From Spirochaetota bacterium (GTDB lineage: Bacteria; Spirochaetota; Spirochaetia; Treponematales; UBA12059), in assembly GCA_029547205.1 (NCBI GenBank), contig JAKPPT010000093.1:1-44607 (forward strand): 44,607 nt of DNA. Direction: 5' to 3'. Below the pieces are notes generated by a model, which worked only from the letters and a program-made list of their open reading frames with translations, searched no databases and was not told the origin of the DNA. Positions 3,093 through 44,607 of this stretch are shown piece by piece. The first letter of the stretch is position 1, and each line of letters starts with the position of its first letter. The position numbers were made by a program, and so were the translations under genes.

Positions 3093-4243
3093 ATGATTTA
3101 CTATTCTAAAGTTGATGAATATTTAAATAATGTAGAAGATGAAGGATTTTAAATATTTTGACAAGTAATTTTAAGCAAATCTTTGATTCCCTACCTTCTG
3201 AAAGCGAAGTTAATTCATGGAAAAATTCTTTAATGGTGCTTGCTAGTGTTTTAAAAAGCAATATCAAATTACATAATTTGTATATTTTTTTAGAATATAA
3301 AATGCCTTCTTGTTCAAGGAGAGCAGATGTAATGCTTTTTGGATTGGATAAAAACCAAAAGCCAACAGCTTTAGTTATAGAATTAAAACAATGGAGTAAT
3401 ATAGGCCAATCAGCAATAACTGATACTATTGCTATAGGTAATAAACCATTTTGCATCCATTTATTCAAGTGAAAGGCTATTGTGAATACTTAAAATACTA
3501 TCATCAAGCTTTCTCAAAAGATAACTATTTAATAAGAGGATGTGCATATCTACATAATTTAAGTGATAAAAAAAATTAGAGCAAATTATAACAAATGATA
3601 TTATAATAGATTATCCTATATTTATTAAAGGTGAGGAAATTAAGTTAAATGAATTTATTACAAATATTTTTTCAGATAAAGAAATAGGTGATGATTATTT
3701 AAATAAAATAATAAATGTAAATTACTATGTTTCTACAAAATTGCTTGATGTATTAAATCAATCTATCCAATCAAATTTTGAATGGAGATTATTAGACGAA
3801 CAAAAAATAGTGTTTAATACAGTAATTGATAAAGTAAATGAATCAATAAAAAACAATAAAAAATCTGTAATAATTGTAACAGGAGGTCCTGGTACTGGAA
3901 AAAGTGTTCTATCTATTCAACTTTTAGTTTATGGGGCAAGGCAAAATTTAAAGGTTGCATATGCTACAGGATCAAAAGCATTTATAACGGTTTTGCAAGC
4001 ATTAACGCAAGATTTGGCGGATGATTTGCTAAAAAAATTCATAATAAAAGAACAAAATCACAAATACCAGTTAAAGATATATTTGTCTTGTCAAAAGATA
4101 TAGCAAAAATTGGATGTAAAGAATCAAGTAGAAACTATTTTGATTTAATTATATACGATGAAGGGCATTGATTATGGGATTTTAGAAGAAATATATTTAA
4201 TAATATGAATAAACAACTATCAGACACCCCAATGATTGCTTAG
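3093..4243 (+). pseudogene. DUF2075-family protein (nuclease-like N-terminus plus P-loop NTPase), frameshifted and truncated
   Basis: Conceptual joining of frames gives one continuous DUF2075-type protein. It has MIYYSKVDEYLN at the start, EINSW-like and RADVMLFG...LVIELKQW (PD-(D/E)XK-like D and E-x-K residues), a Walker A VTGGPGTGKS at about 3880-3909, and a Walker B LIIYDEGH at about 4142-4168. The frames are broken at about 3150, 3450, 3570 and 4030. Each break is repaired by adding one base to a homopolymer run (T, T, A, A). A fifth lesion turns the codon after DEGH into TGA, where family members have arginine. The frame ends at TAG 4241-4243, inside the terminus of element E3, so the C-terminal half is missing. 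DUF2075 proteins are often found near restriction and other defence genes. Not expected to be functional. Confidence 0.75.
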
Positions 4244-4384
4244 TGTCACGAAGCTTGTGAAAATCCAGGTTGAAAGTATTCTATTTTTGATTGTATTACA
4301 ATTAACATACTATTTTGTATATGTAGCGAACCATAATCACTATATATTGTAGTGCAGATTCTATTCACAATCTTCCTGTCACTA
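4240..4384. mobile_element. MITE-like element E3
   Basis: It has left terminus TTAGTGTCACGAAGCTTGTG at 4240 and right terminus TTCACAATCTTCCTGTCACTA ending at about 4384 (shown without its full context). The interior is AT-rich and gene-less, with GAAAGTATTCTATTTTTGAT-like and TATATATTGTAG-like segments shared with E4-E6. It adjoins the broken end of the DUF2075 pseudogene, which suggests insertion into it or into a flank of a deletion. Confidence 0.65.
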
Positions 4385-4431
4385 GTAGGATATCATTATA
4401 TTTATCAAACTTGCTCACTATGCTATAGTTC

Positions 4432-8096: not shown

Positions 8097-8117
8097 TGGC
8101 ATTATGAGGTCACCTGC

Positions 8118-8283
8118 TTAGTGTCCTGAAAATTGTGAAATCGCTGTTTTTGATTACTCCTCACCTGGTTTTTACAGAAAGCATGCAATATATAGTGTAG
8201 TATGAAACTCTATGTACTAAATATTGTATAGGTGTAAGTATGCACAAGCTTCCTGACACTAAGCACAAGCTTCCTGACACTAA
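8118..8283. mobile_element. MITE-like element E4
   Basis: The left terminus TTAGTGTCCTGAAAATTGTG starts at 8118. The right terminus is the inverse GCTTCCTGACACTAA, duplicated in tandem. Inner segments CAATATATAGTGTAGTA and TACTAAATATTGTATAG are imperfect inverted repeats of each other. There is no gene inside. It lies upstream of the large OmpA-type gene. Confidence 0.7.
8242..8283. repeat. Perfect 21-bp tandem duplication of the E4 right terminus
   Basis: The sequence at 8242-8262 (starting GCACAAGC and ending GACACTAA) is repeated exactly at 8263-8283. Each copy is a complete terminal repeat of the element family. Confidence 0.9.
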
Positions 8284-8413
8284 ATAAACTTTGCTTATAA
8301 GATTAGGTGTGATATATTGTACATATTACTATGTCTATAAGTTTTACAAAAATGTATGGGAACCATTCTATAACACTGTAGTTAACTATATAAATTGCAA
8401 TGAGAGAGGTATC

Positions 8414-11400
8414 ATGATGAAAAGAATTGTTGCACTGAGTTTGGTCTTGCTCTTAGCGATTACTGCAATGGCATTTGACCCTCCAGCTGGAGGAGATGGG
8501 CTTCCCTTTATGTGGACGCCGTATCTGGCGGGAGGTAGCATGTCGGTTGCTTCGCTGTTTGGTCCGGGTGCTGATTATCTTAACCCGTCAGCATCTGGTT
8601 TGTTGCAGCGGGTTACGCTCGATGTCGGATATCTTGCACTGACTGGTTTGGGTACCGAACAGGGACTGGGTACAGGTGTAAATCTCGGTATCGCAATTCC
8701 GCAACCGTATGGAGTTTGGACGTTTGGTCTCAATTTTCTTTCAAGCCCGCCTGAACTGGCTTCGCTTCCTATAGGCACACTGTTTGGAGGAAGGATAGGG
8801 CTTGCAAAGGATGTATACCCTAATTTTCTCGTGGGTCTCGGTGTTCGCATGCTGTTGGGGAGCAACGGCAATAGCGATTGGGGACTCGGCGCGGATATCG
8901 GTGTGCTGCACCTTTTAGGAAAAGTAGGCTTTCTCCAGAATGCCCGATATGGTATAGCTGTTCGCAATATGGGAAAGGGTTTTGCACCGGTTGGACTTGT
9001 TGGTTATAACGGAACACAGGCTACAGCATACGATTCCCCATTTACTCTGGCTCTGGGTTTTGCAGGTGACCTTTTTAATGACACAAAGACAGGTTTCCGG
9101 ATTGGAAGCTCTATCGATTTCTATTTCCCAACATTTCAGAATCTGGTGTTTGCAACTGGTATTGAATTTGCTTATAAAAATATTGTATCTGCAAAAATTG
9201 GATGGGATATCAACGTGGGAGAAGCTGTCGCAAATGTGCCGCGTGATTTATATCCATCGTTTAGTGTAATGGCAACAATTCCTATCTCTCGAAAAGCCGA
9301 TGACTCGTTTATTTCCCAACAAGGATGGGATAAATCAGAACTACAGCCGATTGTTTCTGCACGGCCGCTCTACAATGGTATCTGGTCGATAGGCGGAGGC
9401 GCTACTATGCCATTAGGTGTTGTTGATAAGACACCGCCAAAAATTGCTGATAAGTATCCGGAAACAAAATACGATGCATACTACATGAGTCCCAATAACG
9501 ATGGTGTCCTGGATACCATCGAGATTCCAATAACCATTACAGATTCACGGTATGTTAAGTCTTATTCATTCAAAATATACAACGAAGCTGGTGAACTTGT
9601 GAGAACAATCGTAAATAAAGAAGCACTTCCTGAGTCTGTTTCTTTTGGTGATTTCTTTAAACGGCTTATCTATGTAAAAAAAGGAATACCAATACCACAG
9701 AGCCTCATCTGGAATGGAATCAATGATGCTGGCGCTGTTGTGCCAGATGGCGTGTACTTTTATGAGATAGAGGCTATTGATGATAATGGTAACAAAGCTG
9801 TTACCGAACGAAAAAAGTTTATTGTCGATAACACACATCCTGAAATTACTATCAACGTGTCAGCTGATAGTTCTGGTTTAATTTTTAGCCCCGATGGTGA
9901 TGGGAATAAAGATATACTCACAGTAAAACAGAGTGGCAGTTCAGAAGATCTCTGGAAATTAGAGGTGATTGACCTCTCAGGCACAGTCATACGTACCATT
10001 GAAGTAAAAAATTCATCACCTGGAAATTTTGTATGGGATGGTAAAGATAATGCAGATGTTGTGGTCCCCGATGGTATCTATTCGTATAGAATTTCTGCAA
10101 CTGATCGCGCAGGGAATGTTACAACAAAGAAAGTTGATAATATTATAATCAATACGCAGCAGCCTCCAGTCGGTTTTTCAATCAGTACCAATGCATTTAG
10201 TCCCAATGGTGATACTGTTAAAGATACCGTAACATTTACCATTAGTGTTCCTGTTAAGACAGGGCTTTCAAGTTGGTCACTGTCTGTACTGGACAGTAAA
10301 GGTACCGCAGTATGGGAACTTAACGGGAACGAGGCATCTAGCCTCAAAGATAGTTTTGTTTTTGCCGGTCTTGATTCCTCAGGTAAGACGTTACCGGAAG
10401 GACAGTATCAGGCTAAACTTGCGGTTAAATATGTGAACGGTCATAGTCCTGAAATTGTAAGCCCGCTCTTTACGCTTGATGTAACGAGGCCGAATGCTGT
10501 CATCAAACTTGATAGAATTGCGTTTAATCCGCTTGCCGGAGGCGATCAACAGCTTGTGATTACACAGACTGCATCAAAAGAGGACAGGTGGATAGCTGAG
10601 ATAATCAATGCAGAAAATACCGTTGTGAGGAGCTGGACTTTTATTGATATGCCAGAGGCAACACTAATATGGGATGGTGCTGATGACAACGGAAAAGTTG
10701 TAAAAGACGGATTGTATCGGTATAAAATTTCCGCAGTAGATCGGGCTGGGAATGAATTTAGTGTAACATCACAGGCAGTTACTGTTGATACTGCTCAAAA
10801 GCAGGTACGGCTTGCTCTCGATAAGCGTGCATTCAGTCCTAACAACGATAAGGCAAAAGATGATGTAGTGCTCTTACCTGAGGTTGCATCAAATGATCGT
10901 GTACGTTCATGGAGTGTTACTGTAGTTGATGAAAAAGGTACTGTTGTGCGCACTTTTAAGGGTACCGGAAAAGTTCCTGACAAAATAACATGGGATGGTA
11001 AAAATGATCGAGCCGAACTCGCCTCTGATGGATTGTATACCGCAAATCTGGAAGTTCAGTATATTACAAATGAAATTGAAAGAGCTGCTTCATTCAAAGT
11101 AATGCTCGATACAACTCCACCGCAGGCAAAAGTTTCAACACAGTATCTTGTTTTCAGTCCCAATGGGGATAAACAAAAGGATACGCTCGCTATTGAGCAG
11201 GACTCAGTGCCTGGTGATGATTGGGAAGGCGCTATTATCGATGCAAAAGGCACAGTCGTAAAACAGTTTGTCTGGAAAAATAAAGCTGTAACGTTCGAGT
11301 GGGATGGCACTGATAATCAGGGGAATAAGGTACCTGATGGCACATACTCATACAGATTGTCTGCAACAGATGCAGCTGGAAACAAAGCAGAAACAATTGT

Positions 11401-12514
11401 GCGCGGCATCGTGCTTGATACAAGAACGGCTGATGCATACCTTACCGTTGATAATTCCGGCTTTAGTCCTAATGGCACGGTAAAGACTATTACGGTTGGC
11501 GTTGTGGTAACACTAAAAGACGGCGTCGATACATGGAAGCTTGCAATTGTGGATGATGCAGGAAAAGAGTACAGATCTGTAACAGGAAAGGGTGGTACTA
11601 CCATACCTGCTACGTTTGTATGGGACGGAAAAGCTGATACCGGGCTTGCTCCTGATGGTACCTATAAAGCTCTCTTAACAGCAAATTACACTCGAGGCGA
11701 TCGGTTAAGTGCTGCCTCTTCTGCATTTGTTCTTGATTCGACAGGCCCTAAAGTAGCAATAAAGGTAACACCAGAACTCTTTAGTCCTGATAATGATGGT
11801 GTAGATGATGAGCTTCAAATTGCGCTTTCAATCGCTGAACCGAATGGTATTGATACCTGGCGATTCGAGATAAATGAAGTATCAGTTGATGAAGGCACAG
11901 GCGCTGCACGAAAAGAGCGTGGGTTCTTTAGCTGGTCAGGACGTGGAAAACCTGCAGATCGATTAACGTGGGATGGACGCTCATCAAAAGGTGAACTTGT
12001 CGAAGCTGCAACCGATTATCTCTATCGCTTAACTGTTGTCGACATGTATGGTAACCGAACAGTAACAGAAGGCATGATAACCACAGATGTCCTCGTAATT
12101 CGTGATGGTGACAGGCTTAAAATTAAAGTGCCTTCAATAGTGTTCCGTGCAGGTTTTGCCGATTTTAAGGATCTTACACCGGAGATAATTGCACGAAATG
12201 ATGCAGTATTGCGCCGTATTGCACAGATACTCAACCGTTTTAAGGAGTACAACATTAGAATCGAAGGGCACGCTAATAACGTGTCTAAAATAAATGGAAG
12301 ACCGCAAGCAGAGATTGATAAAGAAGAGCGAGAGGTCGTGATACCATTATCTGAAGCGCGTGCGCGTGCAATCATGCAAAAGCTTATACAGTTTGGTGTC
12401 GATCCAAAACGGTTATCGGTACTTGGACGCGGTTCGAGCGAACCGGTAGTTAGCTTTACCGATGCAGAAAACCGCTGGAAGAACAGGCGTGTTGAGTTTA
12501 TTTTAATAAAATAA
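8414..12514 (+). CDS. Large envelope protein: barrel-like N-terminus, FlgD/Ig-like repeats, C-terminal OmpA domain
   Basis: The start is ATG 8414 (or 8417), because a GAGAGG site precedes it and a signal peptide begins there (MMKRIVALSLVLLLAITAMA). The mature product is about 1340 residues. Residues 20-320 are glycine- and aromatic-rich beta strands (LGLGVRMLLGSNG, GFRIGSSIDFYFP) like an outer-membrane barrel of the PorV/UPF0164 kind. Residues about 340-1230 contain about eight FlgD/gliding-type Ig modules. Each starts with an aspartate-rich motif (SPNNDGVLDT, SPDGDGNKDI, SPNGDTVKDT, SPNNDKAKDD, SPNGDKQKDT, SPDNDGVDDE, plus degenerate copies) and includes WDGKDN-like and PDGTYSYRL-like turns. 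The last 120 residues are an OmpA peptidoglycan-binding domain (IRIEGHANN, then LSEARARAIMQKL, then GRGSSEP and NRRVEFI). It probably spans from the outer membrane to the cell wall. Confidence 0.88.
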   Translation: MMKRIVALSLVLLLAITAMAFDPPAGGDGLPFMWTPYLAGGSMSVASLFGPGADYLNPSASGLLQRVTLDVGYLALTGLGTEQGLGTGVNLGIAIPQPYGVWTFGLNFLSSPPELASLPIGTLFGGRIGLAKDVYPNFLVGLGVRMLLGSNGNSDWGLGADIGVLHLLGKVGFLQNARYGIAVRNMGKGFAPVGLVGYNGTQATAYDSPFTLALGFAGDLFNDTKTGFRIGSSIDFYFPTFQNLVFATGIEFAYKNIVSAKIGWDINVGEAVANVPRDLYPSFSVMATIPISRKADDSFISQQGWDKSELQPIVSARPLYNGIWSIGGGATMPLGVVDKTPPKIADKYPETKYDAYYMSPNNDGVLDTIEIPITITDSRYVKSYSFKIYNEAGELVRTIVNKEALPESVSFGDFFKRLIYVKKGIPIPQSLIWNGINDAGAVVPDGVYFYEIEAIDDNGNKAVTERKKFIVDNTHPEITINVSADSSGLIFSPDGDGNKDILTVKQSGSSEDLWKLEVIDLSGTVIRTIEVKNSSPGNFVWDGKDNADVVVPDGIYSYRISATDRAGNVTTKKVDNIIINTQQPPVGFSISTNAFSPNGDTVKDTVTFTISVPVKTGLSSWSLSVLDSKGTAVWELNGNEASSLKDSFVFAGLDSSGKTLPEGQYQAKLAVKYVNGHSPEIVSPLFTLDVTRPNAVIKLDRIAFNPLAGGDQQLVITQTASKEDRWIAEIINAENTVVRSWTFIDMPEATLIWDGADDNGKVVKDGLYRYKISAVDRAGNEFSVTSQAVTVDTAQKQVRLALDKRAFSPNNDKAKDDVVLLPEVASNDRVRSWSVTVVDEKGTVVRTFKGTGKVPDKITWDGKNDRAELASDGLYTANLEVQYITNEIERAASFKVMLDTTPPQAKVSTQYLVFSPNGDKQKDTLAIEQDSVPGDDWEGAIIDAKGTVVKQFVWKNKAVTFEWDGTDNQGNKVPDGTYSYRLSATDAAGNKAETIVRGIVLDTRTADAYLTVDNSGFSPNGTVKTITVGVVVTLKDGVDTWKLAIVDDAGKEYRSVTGKGGTTIPATFVWDGKADTGLAPDGTYKALLTANYTRGDRLSAASSAFVLDSTGPKVAIKVTPELFSPDNDGVDDELQIALSIAEPNGIDTWRFEINEVSVDEGTGAARKERGFFSWSGRGKPADRLTWDGRSSKGELVEAATDYLYRLTVVDMYGNRTVTEGMITTDVLVIRDGDRLKIKVPSIVFRAGFADFKDLTPEIIARNDAVLRRIAQILNRFKEYNIRIEGHANNVSKINGRPQAEIDKEEREVVIPLSEARARAIMQKLIQFGVDPKRLSVLGRGSSEPVVSFTDAENRWKNRRVEFILIK

Positions 12515-12557
12515 AAGCAGATGTTCGGTGACGGGCATCCTGTCACAAGGTTTATTG

Positions 12558-12592
12558 AAAGCCGGCGCTTAACTGTGCCGGCTTTTTATTTT
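12558..12592 (+). terminator. Intrinsic terminator after the OmpA-type gene
   Basis: AAAGCCGGC (12558-12566) pairs with GCCGGCTTT (12577-12585), followed by TTATTTTA. A strong GC-rich stem with T-rich tail, about 45 bases after the stop codon. Confidence 0.88.
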
Positions 12593-12596
12593 ATGC

Positions 12597-12762
12597 TTAG
12601 TGTCAGGAAAAATGTGAAATGGTGCTTGTGAACACTACTGTTTTGATTTTTGATAGAAAGTATCCAATATATTGTATGGCATATAAATAAGACCACTAAA
12701 TATTGTGTTGATACTTTTATTCACAAGCTTCGAGGCACTAATCACAAGCTTCGAGACACTAA
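12597..12762. mobile_element. MITE-like element E5
   Basis: The left terminus TTAGTGTCAGGAAAAATGTG starts at 12597, directly after the terminator. The right terminus GCTTCGAGACACTAA ends at 12762 and is preceded by a second near-identical copy. The interior shares GAAAGTATCCAATATATTGT-like sequence with E6 and E4. It lies directly upstream of the DUF2156 gene. Confidence 0.7.
12721..12762. repeat. 21-bp tandem duplication of the E5 right terminus, one mismatch
   Basis: 12721-12741 and 12742-12762 are the same terminal repeat (starting TCACAAGCTTCGAG), differing at one base (GGCACTAA versus GACACTAA). Confidence 0.9.
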
Positions 12763-17086: not shown

Positions 17087-17265
17087 TAGTGTCAGGAAGA
17101 TTGTGAAACTACAAAGTGCCCTTAGTGTCATGAAAAATGTGAAAAATCTGTATTGAGCATAACTTGTTTGATTTTTTATTGAAAGTATCAAATATGTTGT
17201 ATAGTGTAAAAATATGTCTACTATATATCGTAGAGGTTCTTTTTTCACAAGCTTCGTGGCACTAA
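17087..17265. mobile_element. MITE-like element E6
   Basis: There are two left-type termini (TAGTGTCAGGAAGATTGTG at 17087 and TTAGTGTCATGAAAAATGTG at 17122). One right terminus (CAAGCTTCGTGGCACTAA) ends at 17265. The interior GAAAGTATCAAATATGTTGT and CTATATATCGTAG are shared with E3-E5. It fills most of the gap between the divergent PAS and Nudix genes. Confidence 0.7.
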
Positions 17266-17307
17266 TGAGTAGTTTATTCACAAATGCAAGGAGATTTTAG
17301 TACAACT

Positions 17308-26384: not shown

Positions 26385-26398
26385 TTACGAACAGTGCC

Positions 26399-26543
26399 TA
26401 GTGTCAGGAAGCTTGTGAATACAATACAGCAGCCCAATACAAGGTATATATTGTGCTGCTACCCACAATATATTGTACCCCTATCTCAATAATCGTCGAT
26501 TCAATGCTCAGCAATTAGTTTTTCACAATTTTCCTGACACAAA
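26399..26543. mobile_element. MITE-like element E7
   Basis: The left terminus TAGTGTCAGGAAGCTTGTGA starts at 26399. The right terminus TTCACAATTTTCCTGACACA ends at about 26543. It contains an imperfect hairpin (AGCAGCCCAATA with TATTGTGCTGCT) related to the perfect one in E2, and ACAATATATTGT as a perfect palindrome. E2 and E7 form one subgroup; both have the right end GACACAAAC. Confidence 0.65.
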
Positions 26544-26619
26544 CCATGAGCCATACTGCCAGGGTATGGCTTTTTTGCAGTTTTTGCCGATACTGATAGT
26601 AGTGTTGCTCTTTTTTATC

Positions 26620-42850: not shown

Positions 42851-42949
42851 ATTCATTACCGCCACTTCGAGAATTTATCTTTAAATTACTAAGTATTTTT
42901 ATAGTATAATTTGTTATAATAAAAGAAATAATATTATTTCGAGCAATGG
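42851..42949 (+). promoter_or_regulatory. CRISPR leader
   Basis: The 99 bases between the cas2 stop and the first repeat are AT-rich and contain TATAAT at 42905-42910 and again at 42915-42920. They are positioned as a leader with promoter for plus-strand array transcription. No clear -35 hexamer was seen. By position it should also carry the spacer-insertion site at its junction with the first repeat. Confidence 0.75.
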
Positions 42950-44607
42950 GTTTTAGCTGCCAATAGTGGGATTTAAAGGTTATCAAGTTTTAACTTTTGC
43001 CCAGCGTATTTACCGTTTTAGCTGCCAATAGTGGGATTTAAAGATCTTTAATATTTAGTTCTGCTTTTATTATATTTGCAAGTTTTAGCTGCCAATAGTG
43101 GGATTTAAAGGGCTTGTTGTGTGGTGTAGTAGTACATGCACGGACAGTTTTAGCTGCCAATAGTGGGATTTAAAGATTTCTTTGGCAATTTCTGTTATTG
43201 TGTATGTTTTTGTTTTAGCTGCCAATAGTGGGATTTAAAGGTATTTGAGAAGTATTTTATTTTTTTTACTTCTTTGGTTTTAGCTGCCAATAGTGGGATT
43301 TAAAGGTTTATTTCAATAGATACAAAATAATTAATGCAATTAGTTTTAGCTGCCAATAGTGGGATTTAAAGATCGGTATACTGCGTTAGCGTATGCGAAC
43401 GGAAAAAGTTTTAGCTGCCAATAGTGGGATTTAAAGGCTAATTCGGATTCGCCGTTTTTATTATTGCCATCTTGTTTTAGCTGCCAATAGTGGGATTTAA
43501 AGTAGAAGTCCAGGAGCAATTACAAAAGATTATTATGCGTTTTAGCTGCCAATAGTGGGATTTAAAGTTAATGTAAGGCCAGATGGAGCATCAGCAAATT
43601 TAGGTTTTAGCTGCCAATAGTGGGATTTAAAGTCGAAGGGTAAAAGCGCATTTTTGTTGTCTCTTTTAAGTTTTAGCTGCCAATAGTGGGATTTAAAGGC
43701 GGAAAGCGTGGCGATATAAAGCAAATGCAAGCTGGGTTTTAGCTGCCAATAGTGGGATTTAAAGTCTATCTGCTCATACAATTTTGCAATCTTTTTTTCA
43801 GTTTTAGCTGCCAATAGTGGGATTTAAAGGCATTACAAATATGTCCAATCTCGAATGGATGTATGGGTTTTAGCTGCCAATAGTGGGATTTAAAGTACTC
43901 AATGTTTATGCCAGCGTAATTCGGCTTATCAGTTTTAGCTGCCAATAGTGGGATTTAAAGTTGCGTAAATCCTATTACACAAAATGCACCTAACACTAGT
44001 TTTAGCTGCCAATAGTGGGATTTAAAGTGTGATATCAGTAGCTACAGCCCCGATAGTTTTGCCGTTTTAGCTGCCAATAGTGGGATTTAAAGTTGTTTTT
44101 GCGGGCTGATCCATTACACCACCTTCAAAGTTTTAGCTGCCAATAGTGGGATTTAAAGTGATGAAGCACGGACGGAAGTCGGCTGTCAAGCTATGTTTTA
44201 GCTGCCAATAGTGGGATTTAAAGGAATTTGTCAACAAACTACTACTTGACAAATGTATAGTTTTAGCTGCCAATAGTGGGATTTAAAGTTCAATGTTTTT
44301 AATTCTGAAAATGAACAATCAAACGTTTTAGCTGCCAATAGTGGGATTTAAAGTAAAAAATCAATAGAATTATTAGAAAATGATTTTAAGTTTTAGCTGC
44401 CAATAGTGGGATTTAAAGGAAGTATAAACAGCATTGATTAAATCACTATAACTAGGTTTTAGCTGCCAATAGTGGGATTTAAAGTCTAAAGAAGTTAATT
44501 TTTTACTGTAAGAACAATCAAGTTTTAGCTGCCAATAGTGGGATTTAAAGATTGTTTTATCACAATCAATTGTGATATTTATTTAAGTTTTAGCTGCCAA
44601 TAGTGGG
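42950..44607 (+). CRISPR. Type I-B CRISPR array, 25 full repeats plus one cut by the window edge
   Basis: Repeats are 29 bases, beginning GTTTTAGCTGCC and ending GTGGGATTTAAAG. All appear identical by eye. Repeat starts: 42950, 43015, 43082, 43147, 43212, 43277, 43343, 43408, 43474, 43539, 43604, 43670, 43736, 43801, 43867, 43932, 43999, 44064, 44130, 44195, 44260, 44325, 44390, 44456, 44522 and 44587 (partial). The 25 spacers are 36-38 bases. The last 8 repeat bases (ATTTAAAG) match the usual I-B crRNA tag. The leader and cas2 on the left give plus-strand transcription, newest spacers on the left. The array continues past the window. No repeat degeneracy is seen, as expected for the leader-side part. 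Confidence 0.98.

Follow-up and report, generated by a model that had tools for sequence, protein, structure and literature searches.

The doubled ends of the small elements in this stretch of DNA belong to a pattern that runs through the family: single ends of a DDE-type IS remain in place and multiply in tandem. The stretch analysed (the window, 44,607 nucleotides) corresponds to contig C83 in the 2.65-Mb draft genome G000. The repeated unit is read as the 19-21 bp terminal repeat, with the core GTGTYACGAAGCTT, of the IS and of ~148-bp MITEs. Both would be moved by a transposase of RNase H-like DDE fold, insertion would put the ends in intergenic DNA (as seen for the MITEs, a minority of which have 9-bp duplications), ends would persist singly after loss of the body, and slippage or unequal exchange would turn one end into two or more; the outcome of this last step is seen directly and the enzyme behind it is presumed. 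For the repeated ends of the elements E4, E5 and E2, short local duplication or unequal exchange of single ends is the best reading, held with moderate confidence.

Doubled ends in the window and in the genome

In E4 (MITE body 8117-8263, ends 8119-8139 and 8241-8261), the right end GCACAAGCTTCCTGACACTAA is present in two head-to-tail copies without mismatches (8242-8262 and 8263-8283); the second copy (8262-8283, reverse strand) follows at a 21-bp period. E5 (body 12596-12742, ends 12598-12618 and 12720-12740) has two copies of TCACAAGCTTCGAGRCACTAA that differ by one mismatch (12721-12741 and 12742-12762; duplicated end 12741-12762, reverse strand). In E2, a MITE of about 147 bp (2147-2293, ends 2149-2169 and 2271-2291), TCGTGACACAAACATTA is followed by TCGTGACACAAACATAT with a 17-bp period within 2277-2312, covering the outer half of the right end and flank, and a degenerate third copy comes after. 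These are true local repeats, and an exact 21-bp tandem repeat is far beyond chance. A sequence-only reading had described all three, and each was recovered at positions correct to within a base. It had also placed E6 (17121-17266, ends 17123-17143 and 17244-17264) among the duplicated elements. Two left-type ends are indeed present there, but they start at 17087 and 17123 (not 17122), 36 bp apart, and match each other at 18 of 21 positions, the differences falling where subtypes vary. They look like two separate ends of different variants, not a duplication, and the extra one (17087-17107, forward strand) is probably a separate solo end. E3 (4239-4386) and E7 (26397-26544) are MITEs with single ends. 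The sequence at 3150-4240, ending at E3, is AT-rich with broken ORFs and looks, by eye, like a decayed helicase or nuclease gene.

The common terminus of the elements in G000 is TAGTGTCA(C/G/T)GAA(GC/AA)TTGTGAA, and a pattern search of the genome returned 187 ends, compared with 6 for the reversed control. A weight-matrix scan of 1.16 Mb of G000, taken as stretches, gave 193 candidate ends in 120 clusters, and its control had no site scoring at least 16. Of the clusters, 42 were inverted pairs (most spanning about 144 bp from outer base to outer base), 61 were single ends and 17 had extra ends; chance matches will account for some of the lowest-scoring single sites. Extra ends were thus present in 17 of 59 multi-end clusters, and with four related genomes also carrying them, the doubled ends are not rare accidents of these few copies, the outcome that would have counted against the earlier reading. 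Forty-one full elements could be aligned into a single MITE family with a length of about 148 bp. Shorter pairs (36-103 bp) were internal deletions, and in our own reading several of these have their junctions at short repeats, TTCAC and ATTGTG among them.

Several high-scoring sites inside genes looked native, and solo ends as coding insertions were rejected. One of them (C63:213343, L041), a two-mismatch copy in frame in a phosphofructokinase-like gene, encodes the native-looking motif IHKLGGT by our reading, and is probably a coincidence. Among 32 solo ends, 21-bp inserts with their own target duplication were not found, the real count equalling the null.

The parent IS and its target

Positions 1-335 of the window are an IS end, in which the reverse strand encodes the zinc-ribbon N-terminus of a transposase (first 77 codons, 1-231) and the terminus TAGTGTCACGAAGCTTGTAAA lies at 315-335. 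The same N-terminal sequence begins contig C82; the assembly therefore breaks in the repeat, and the window contig is broken inside the IS. Full-length relatives of the transposase, about 385 aa, are present in other genomes of the family and order, and a Spirochaetaceae MAG also carries a relative. In the related genome G007, the transposase gene has AGTGTCACGAAGCTTCCGGG on both sides and the IS measures 1240 bp overall. IS and MITE termini have AGTGTCACGAAGCTT in common, the inverted terminal repeats being shared by the 41 MITE copies, the G007 IS and the window IS end, so that the MITE appears, from its sequence, to be mobilised by the IS with common termini.

Residues D135, D225 and E284 of the transposase are invariant in seven homologues. 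The predicted structure has an RNase H-like fold (pLDDT 74.9, residues around E284 at low confidence), and the best matches in a fold search were the RSV and HIV integrases, with Metnase and Hermes in the top ten. With both the D, D, E residues and the fold found, the transposase is predicted to be of the DDE (RNase H-like) type. It resembles the ISL3 and IS1 families in its zinc-ribbon and HTH N-terminus, DDE-type catalytic domain and terminal repeats of about 20 bp, and IS1 typically gives 9-bp target duplications. However, scores were far below both curated NCBIfam cut-offs (ISL3, 18.8-23.4 bits against 180; IS1, 15.6-23.6 bits against 100), and no Pfam transposase family passed its cut-off for this protein.

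Target 9-mers were read at -11 to -3 from the terminus, where the favoured bases are C (-11), A (-10), T (-4) and G (-3). Perfect 9-bp duplications were found at three copies, C45:11972 (CAGTTCTTG), C82:853 (CTCAATGTC) and C82:105117 (CAAGCCCTG), and duplications within one mismatch at three more (C17:34197, C45:42435 and C45:80955). In a pair-wise duplication test, four copies were within one mismatch where 0.1 were expected. As the duplications found are of 9 bp, Tc1/mariner-IS630 elements with a TA target duplication were ruled out. A target duplication is absent from most copies, recent ones included; where duplications are missing in other systems, recombination, adjacent deletion or duplication-free insertion has been given as the cause (PMC11708052). 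Flank exchange between copies found no support as the reason here, with 0 exact cross-element matches among 173 ends (0.2 expected).

How single ends become tandem ends

Same-orientation neighbours in G000 separated by no more than 80 bp (n = 20) matched at 18.45 of 21 positions, compared with 16.66 for random pairs, a similarity reached by 0 of 5000 resamplings. Most are therefore local duplications, with a few nested insertions. Minority variants are common to both ends of each pair at E4, E5, C69:46966 and C63:88670; the pair at C63:22688 also has its own interior in common (32 bp), and at C63:1904, C63:12539 and C69:50270 the neighbouring bases are duplicated as well. These are read as local duplications. 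At C45:80911, an IS end contains an inserted MITE, with a 9-bp duplication that has one mismatch, and the case at C69:129258 is a nested element; two independent or nested ends would likewise account for E6 and for several clusters elsewhere.

The earlier reading had offered two mechanisms, slippage at the terminus during transposition, and insertion next to an existing end followed by internal loss. Slippage fits most cases best, given the common variants of neighbours, periods of 17-75 bp, GGG microhomology and copy-number differences at orthologous loci, but the link to transposition was not supported, since solo and array ends without an element body are also duplicated. Insertion beside an existing end is seen directly at C45:80911 and C69:129258, but insertion and internal loss is not supported as a general route.

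That route can be stated more specifically, as a second element entering the 9-bp target AAGCTTGTG at the inner edge of the terminus, after which deletion between the 9-bp repeat and its copy inside the new end, or between the bodies, leaves ends 21 bp apart. It predicts the exact 21-bp step at E4, E5, C69:46966 and C63:88670, and the 19-bp step at C69:129475; AAGCTTGTG fits the target consensus (A at -10, T and G at -4 and -3), and C45:80911 is a real nested case with a target duplication. Moreover, the four 21-bp cases in G000 all join at the same register beside this target-like 9-mer, for which reason self-insertion plus loss may apply to the 21-bp class. We nevertheless consider it unlikely, because the expected 9-mer is absent from the left flanks of E4 and E5, the rare variants common to neighbours mean that the inserting element must be a sibling of its target, periods of 17, 18, 20, 26 and 33-75 bp are not predicted, and arrays without any element body exist.

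It could also be that the doubled ends have no common cause and arose by nested insertion, old decay and ordinary tandem duplication, without these ends being especially prone to it. G000 does have local tandem repeats without these ends, and the short internal deletions at microhomologies mean that generic processes act on the elements. However, local direct repeats with a period of 15-80 bp formed 65 clusters in 1.16 Mb of G000, and 11 of the 65 overlapped termini, which occupy about 4 kb, or about 0.3% of the sequence. Tandem ends also recur in four further family genomes, in arrays of up to six, and with this recurrence an accidental origin is very improbable.

Tandem arrays, promoters and known repeat systems

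The terminus core is widespread in the family, and same-orientation tandem ends were present in all related genomes listed in detail (G001, G007, G013 and G017), where the pattern is more pronounced than in G000. G007 has 72 sites and G013 has 68; by hand count, same-orientation clusters account for nearly half of these and inverted pairs for almost none. Arrays in these relatives have periods of 18-67 bp (G007: six at exactly 21 bp, five at 38, four at 34-35, three at 34 and three at 18; G013: four at 21 bp and five at 38-39; G001: three at 20 bp and three at 26). In the 18-bp array, the GGG ending one unit is the start of the next, a microhomology junction. Two variants alternate in the L134 array and a 67-bp double unit is repeated in L146, as multi-unit duplication would give. 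Across nine arrays, units were 0.96 identical and internal spacers 0.68 (0.48 shuffled); spacers so much more diverged than ends are not predicted by plain neutral duplication without selection or homogenisation. At L138 and L139 (G007:C16, 354.9 and 359.9 kb), a 115-bp block with three ends is 99% identical between positions 5 kb apart, and the sequence beyond the blocks differs.

Sites of G013 were aligned with 1.19 Mb of G007 as orthologues. Copy numbers (G013 vs. G007) were 2 vs. 6 at L150/L134, 2 vs. 3 at both L152/L141 and L153/L139, 3 vs. 3 at L147/L142, 1 vs. 3 at L164 and 1 vs. 5 at L169. At eight orthologous single sites, the 14-bp core was 98% identical and the 20-bp flanks 73% (5') and 66% (3'), a fair comparison in that the G007 side was not picked for the motif, on a small sample partly beside coding sequence.

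In G007 and G013, TTGA often lies 8 bp past the outer edge of an end, followed by a -10 box at the right spacing, and 15 clusters abut such a promoter, compared with 1.0 ± 1.0 after shuffling. The 5' gene reads away from the motif in 15 of 21 intergenic G007 clusters, and the genes next to the ends, read by eye, are varied. The insertion target resembles TCAA, and a preference for -35-like sites could therefore place ends there without function; the conservation of the core relative to its flanks argues that some promoter-side ends have nevertheless been kept. In the related genus g8, single and tandem ends have been held across species more strictly than flanks, often 8 bp upstream of a promoter, most likely because the site does something. 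A more specific proposal, that in g8 single DDE-type IS ends are independent, tandemly multiplying promoter-upstream modules, inserted beside the -35 and kept by selection, with a copy number of 1 to 6 as a tuning device, is put forward tentatively.

The same core conservation, promoter-abutting clusters and gene orientation would be expected if the 19-21 bp unit were primarily a host regulatory or architectural site (a promoter-upstream operator), adopted by the IS as its terminus, with tandem copies as operator arrays. We regard this as distinctly unlikely, because the motif tail varies by lineage in step with the local IS terminus (GTGAA in G000, CCGGG in G007, TTGGG in G001), several genomes of the same family have no copy, neighbouring genes form no obvious regulon, and the context in G000 is random. 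There, the gene context of solo ends was that of random intergenic DNA, and a regulatory motif was rejected. Promoter enrichment in G000 was slight (49 vs. 39 ± 5) and single ends had no orientation bias relative to genes, so that a common function is not established in this genome. The outer duplicated end of E4 is followed 8 bp further on by the promoter-like TTGCTT-16-TATATT (8291-8318, forward strand), the same distance as in the related genus, a match that is weak alone since such matches are common in AT-rich DNA. An IS-end remnant in G000 (C69, L051:13695) and a solo end at G007:C16:375883 lie, in opposite orientation, upstream of the same-looking HAD-type hydrolase gene, possibly by coincidence.

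When bacterial repeats occur as singles, inverted pairs and tandem clusters, RAYT (HUH) transposases are the usual explanation. The present ends share with REP/REPIN/BIME repeats and their RAYT (TnpA-REP, Y1 HUH) the 20-bp-class intergenic singles, inverted pairs and tandem clusters, so that the pattern, which the earlier reading did not recognise from described MITE families, has known parallels. In REP/REPIN/BIME, it is the pair that moves, and singles are regarded as remnants (PMC3116915). REP/BIME is the closest match in architecture but depends on another enzyme class: the present parent is a DDE-type IS that has terminal repeats and, in some cases, a 9-bp target duplication, and the transposase with common termini is not Y1_Tnp. 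Ordinary bacterial MITEs are alike in the non-coding intergenic form of about 148 bp, the IS-shared terminal repeats and the internally deleted forms, whereas here solo ends are abundant and ends are multiplied head to tail, in several genera. A limited full-text search of open-licence literature gave no direct match for tandem solo IS ends. If the DDE assignment is true, an enzyme class other than RAYT can give rise to REP-like populations, in a system where copy number differs at orthologous loci and some sites are better conserved than their flanks. This would offer a tractable case for asking if transposon ends are kept because of their influence on promoters.

G000 itself has RAYT genes, with five Y1_Tnp hits (L154-L157; contigs C45, C82, C132 and C63). 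Solo ends as the REP of these genes were rejected, a different motif (ACCTGGTACC) being present near them. Besides the termini, a second dispersed motif (ACACCTGGTAC / GGTGCCAGGTTT) forms local tandem repeats near at least two RAYT genes, at about 40.1-42.1 kb of C45 and about 77-79 kb of C82. Of the other repeats in the window, positions 42949-44607 hold a CRISPR array with at least 25 repeats of GTTTTAGCTGCCAATAGTGGGATTTAAAG that runs off the contig end; contig C57 carries the same repeat near 79015, and C63 has a different array repeat near 248347.
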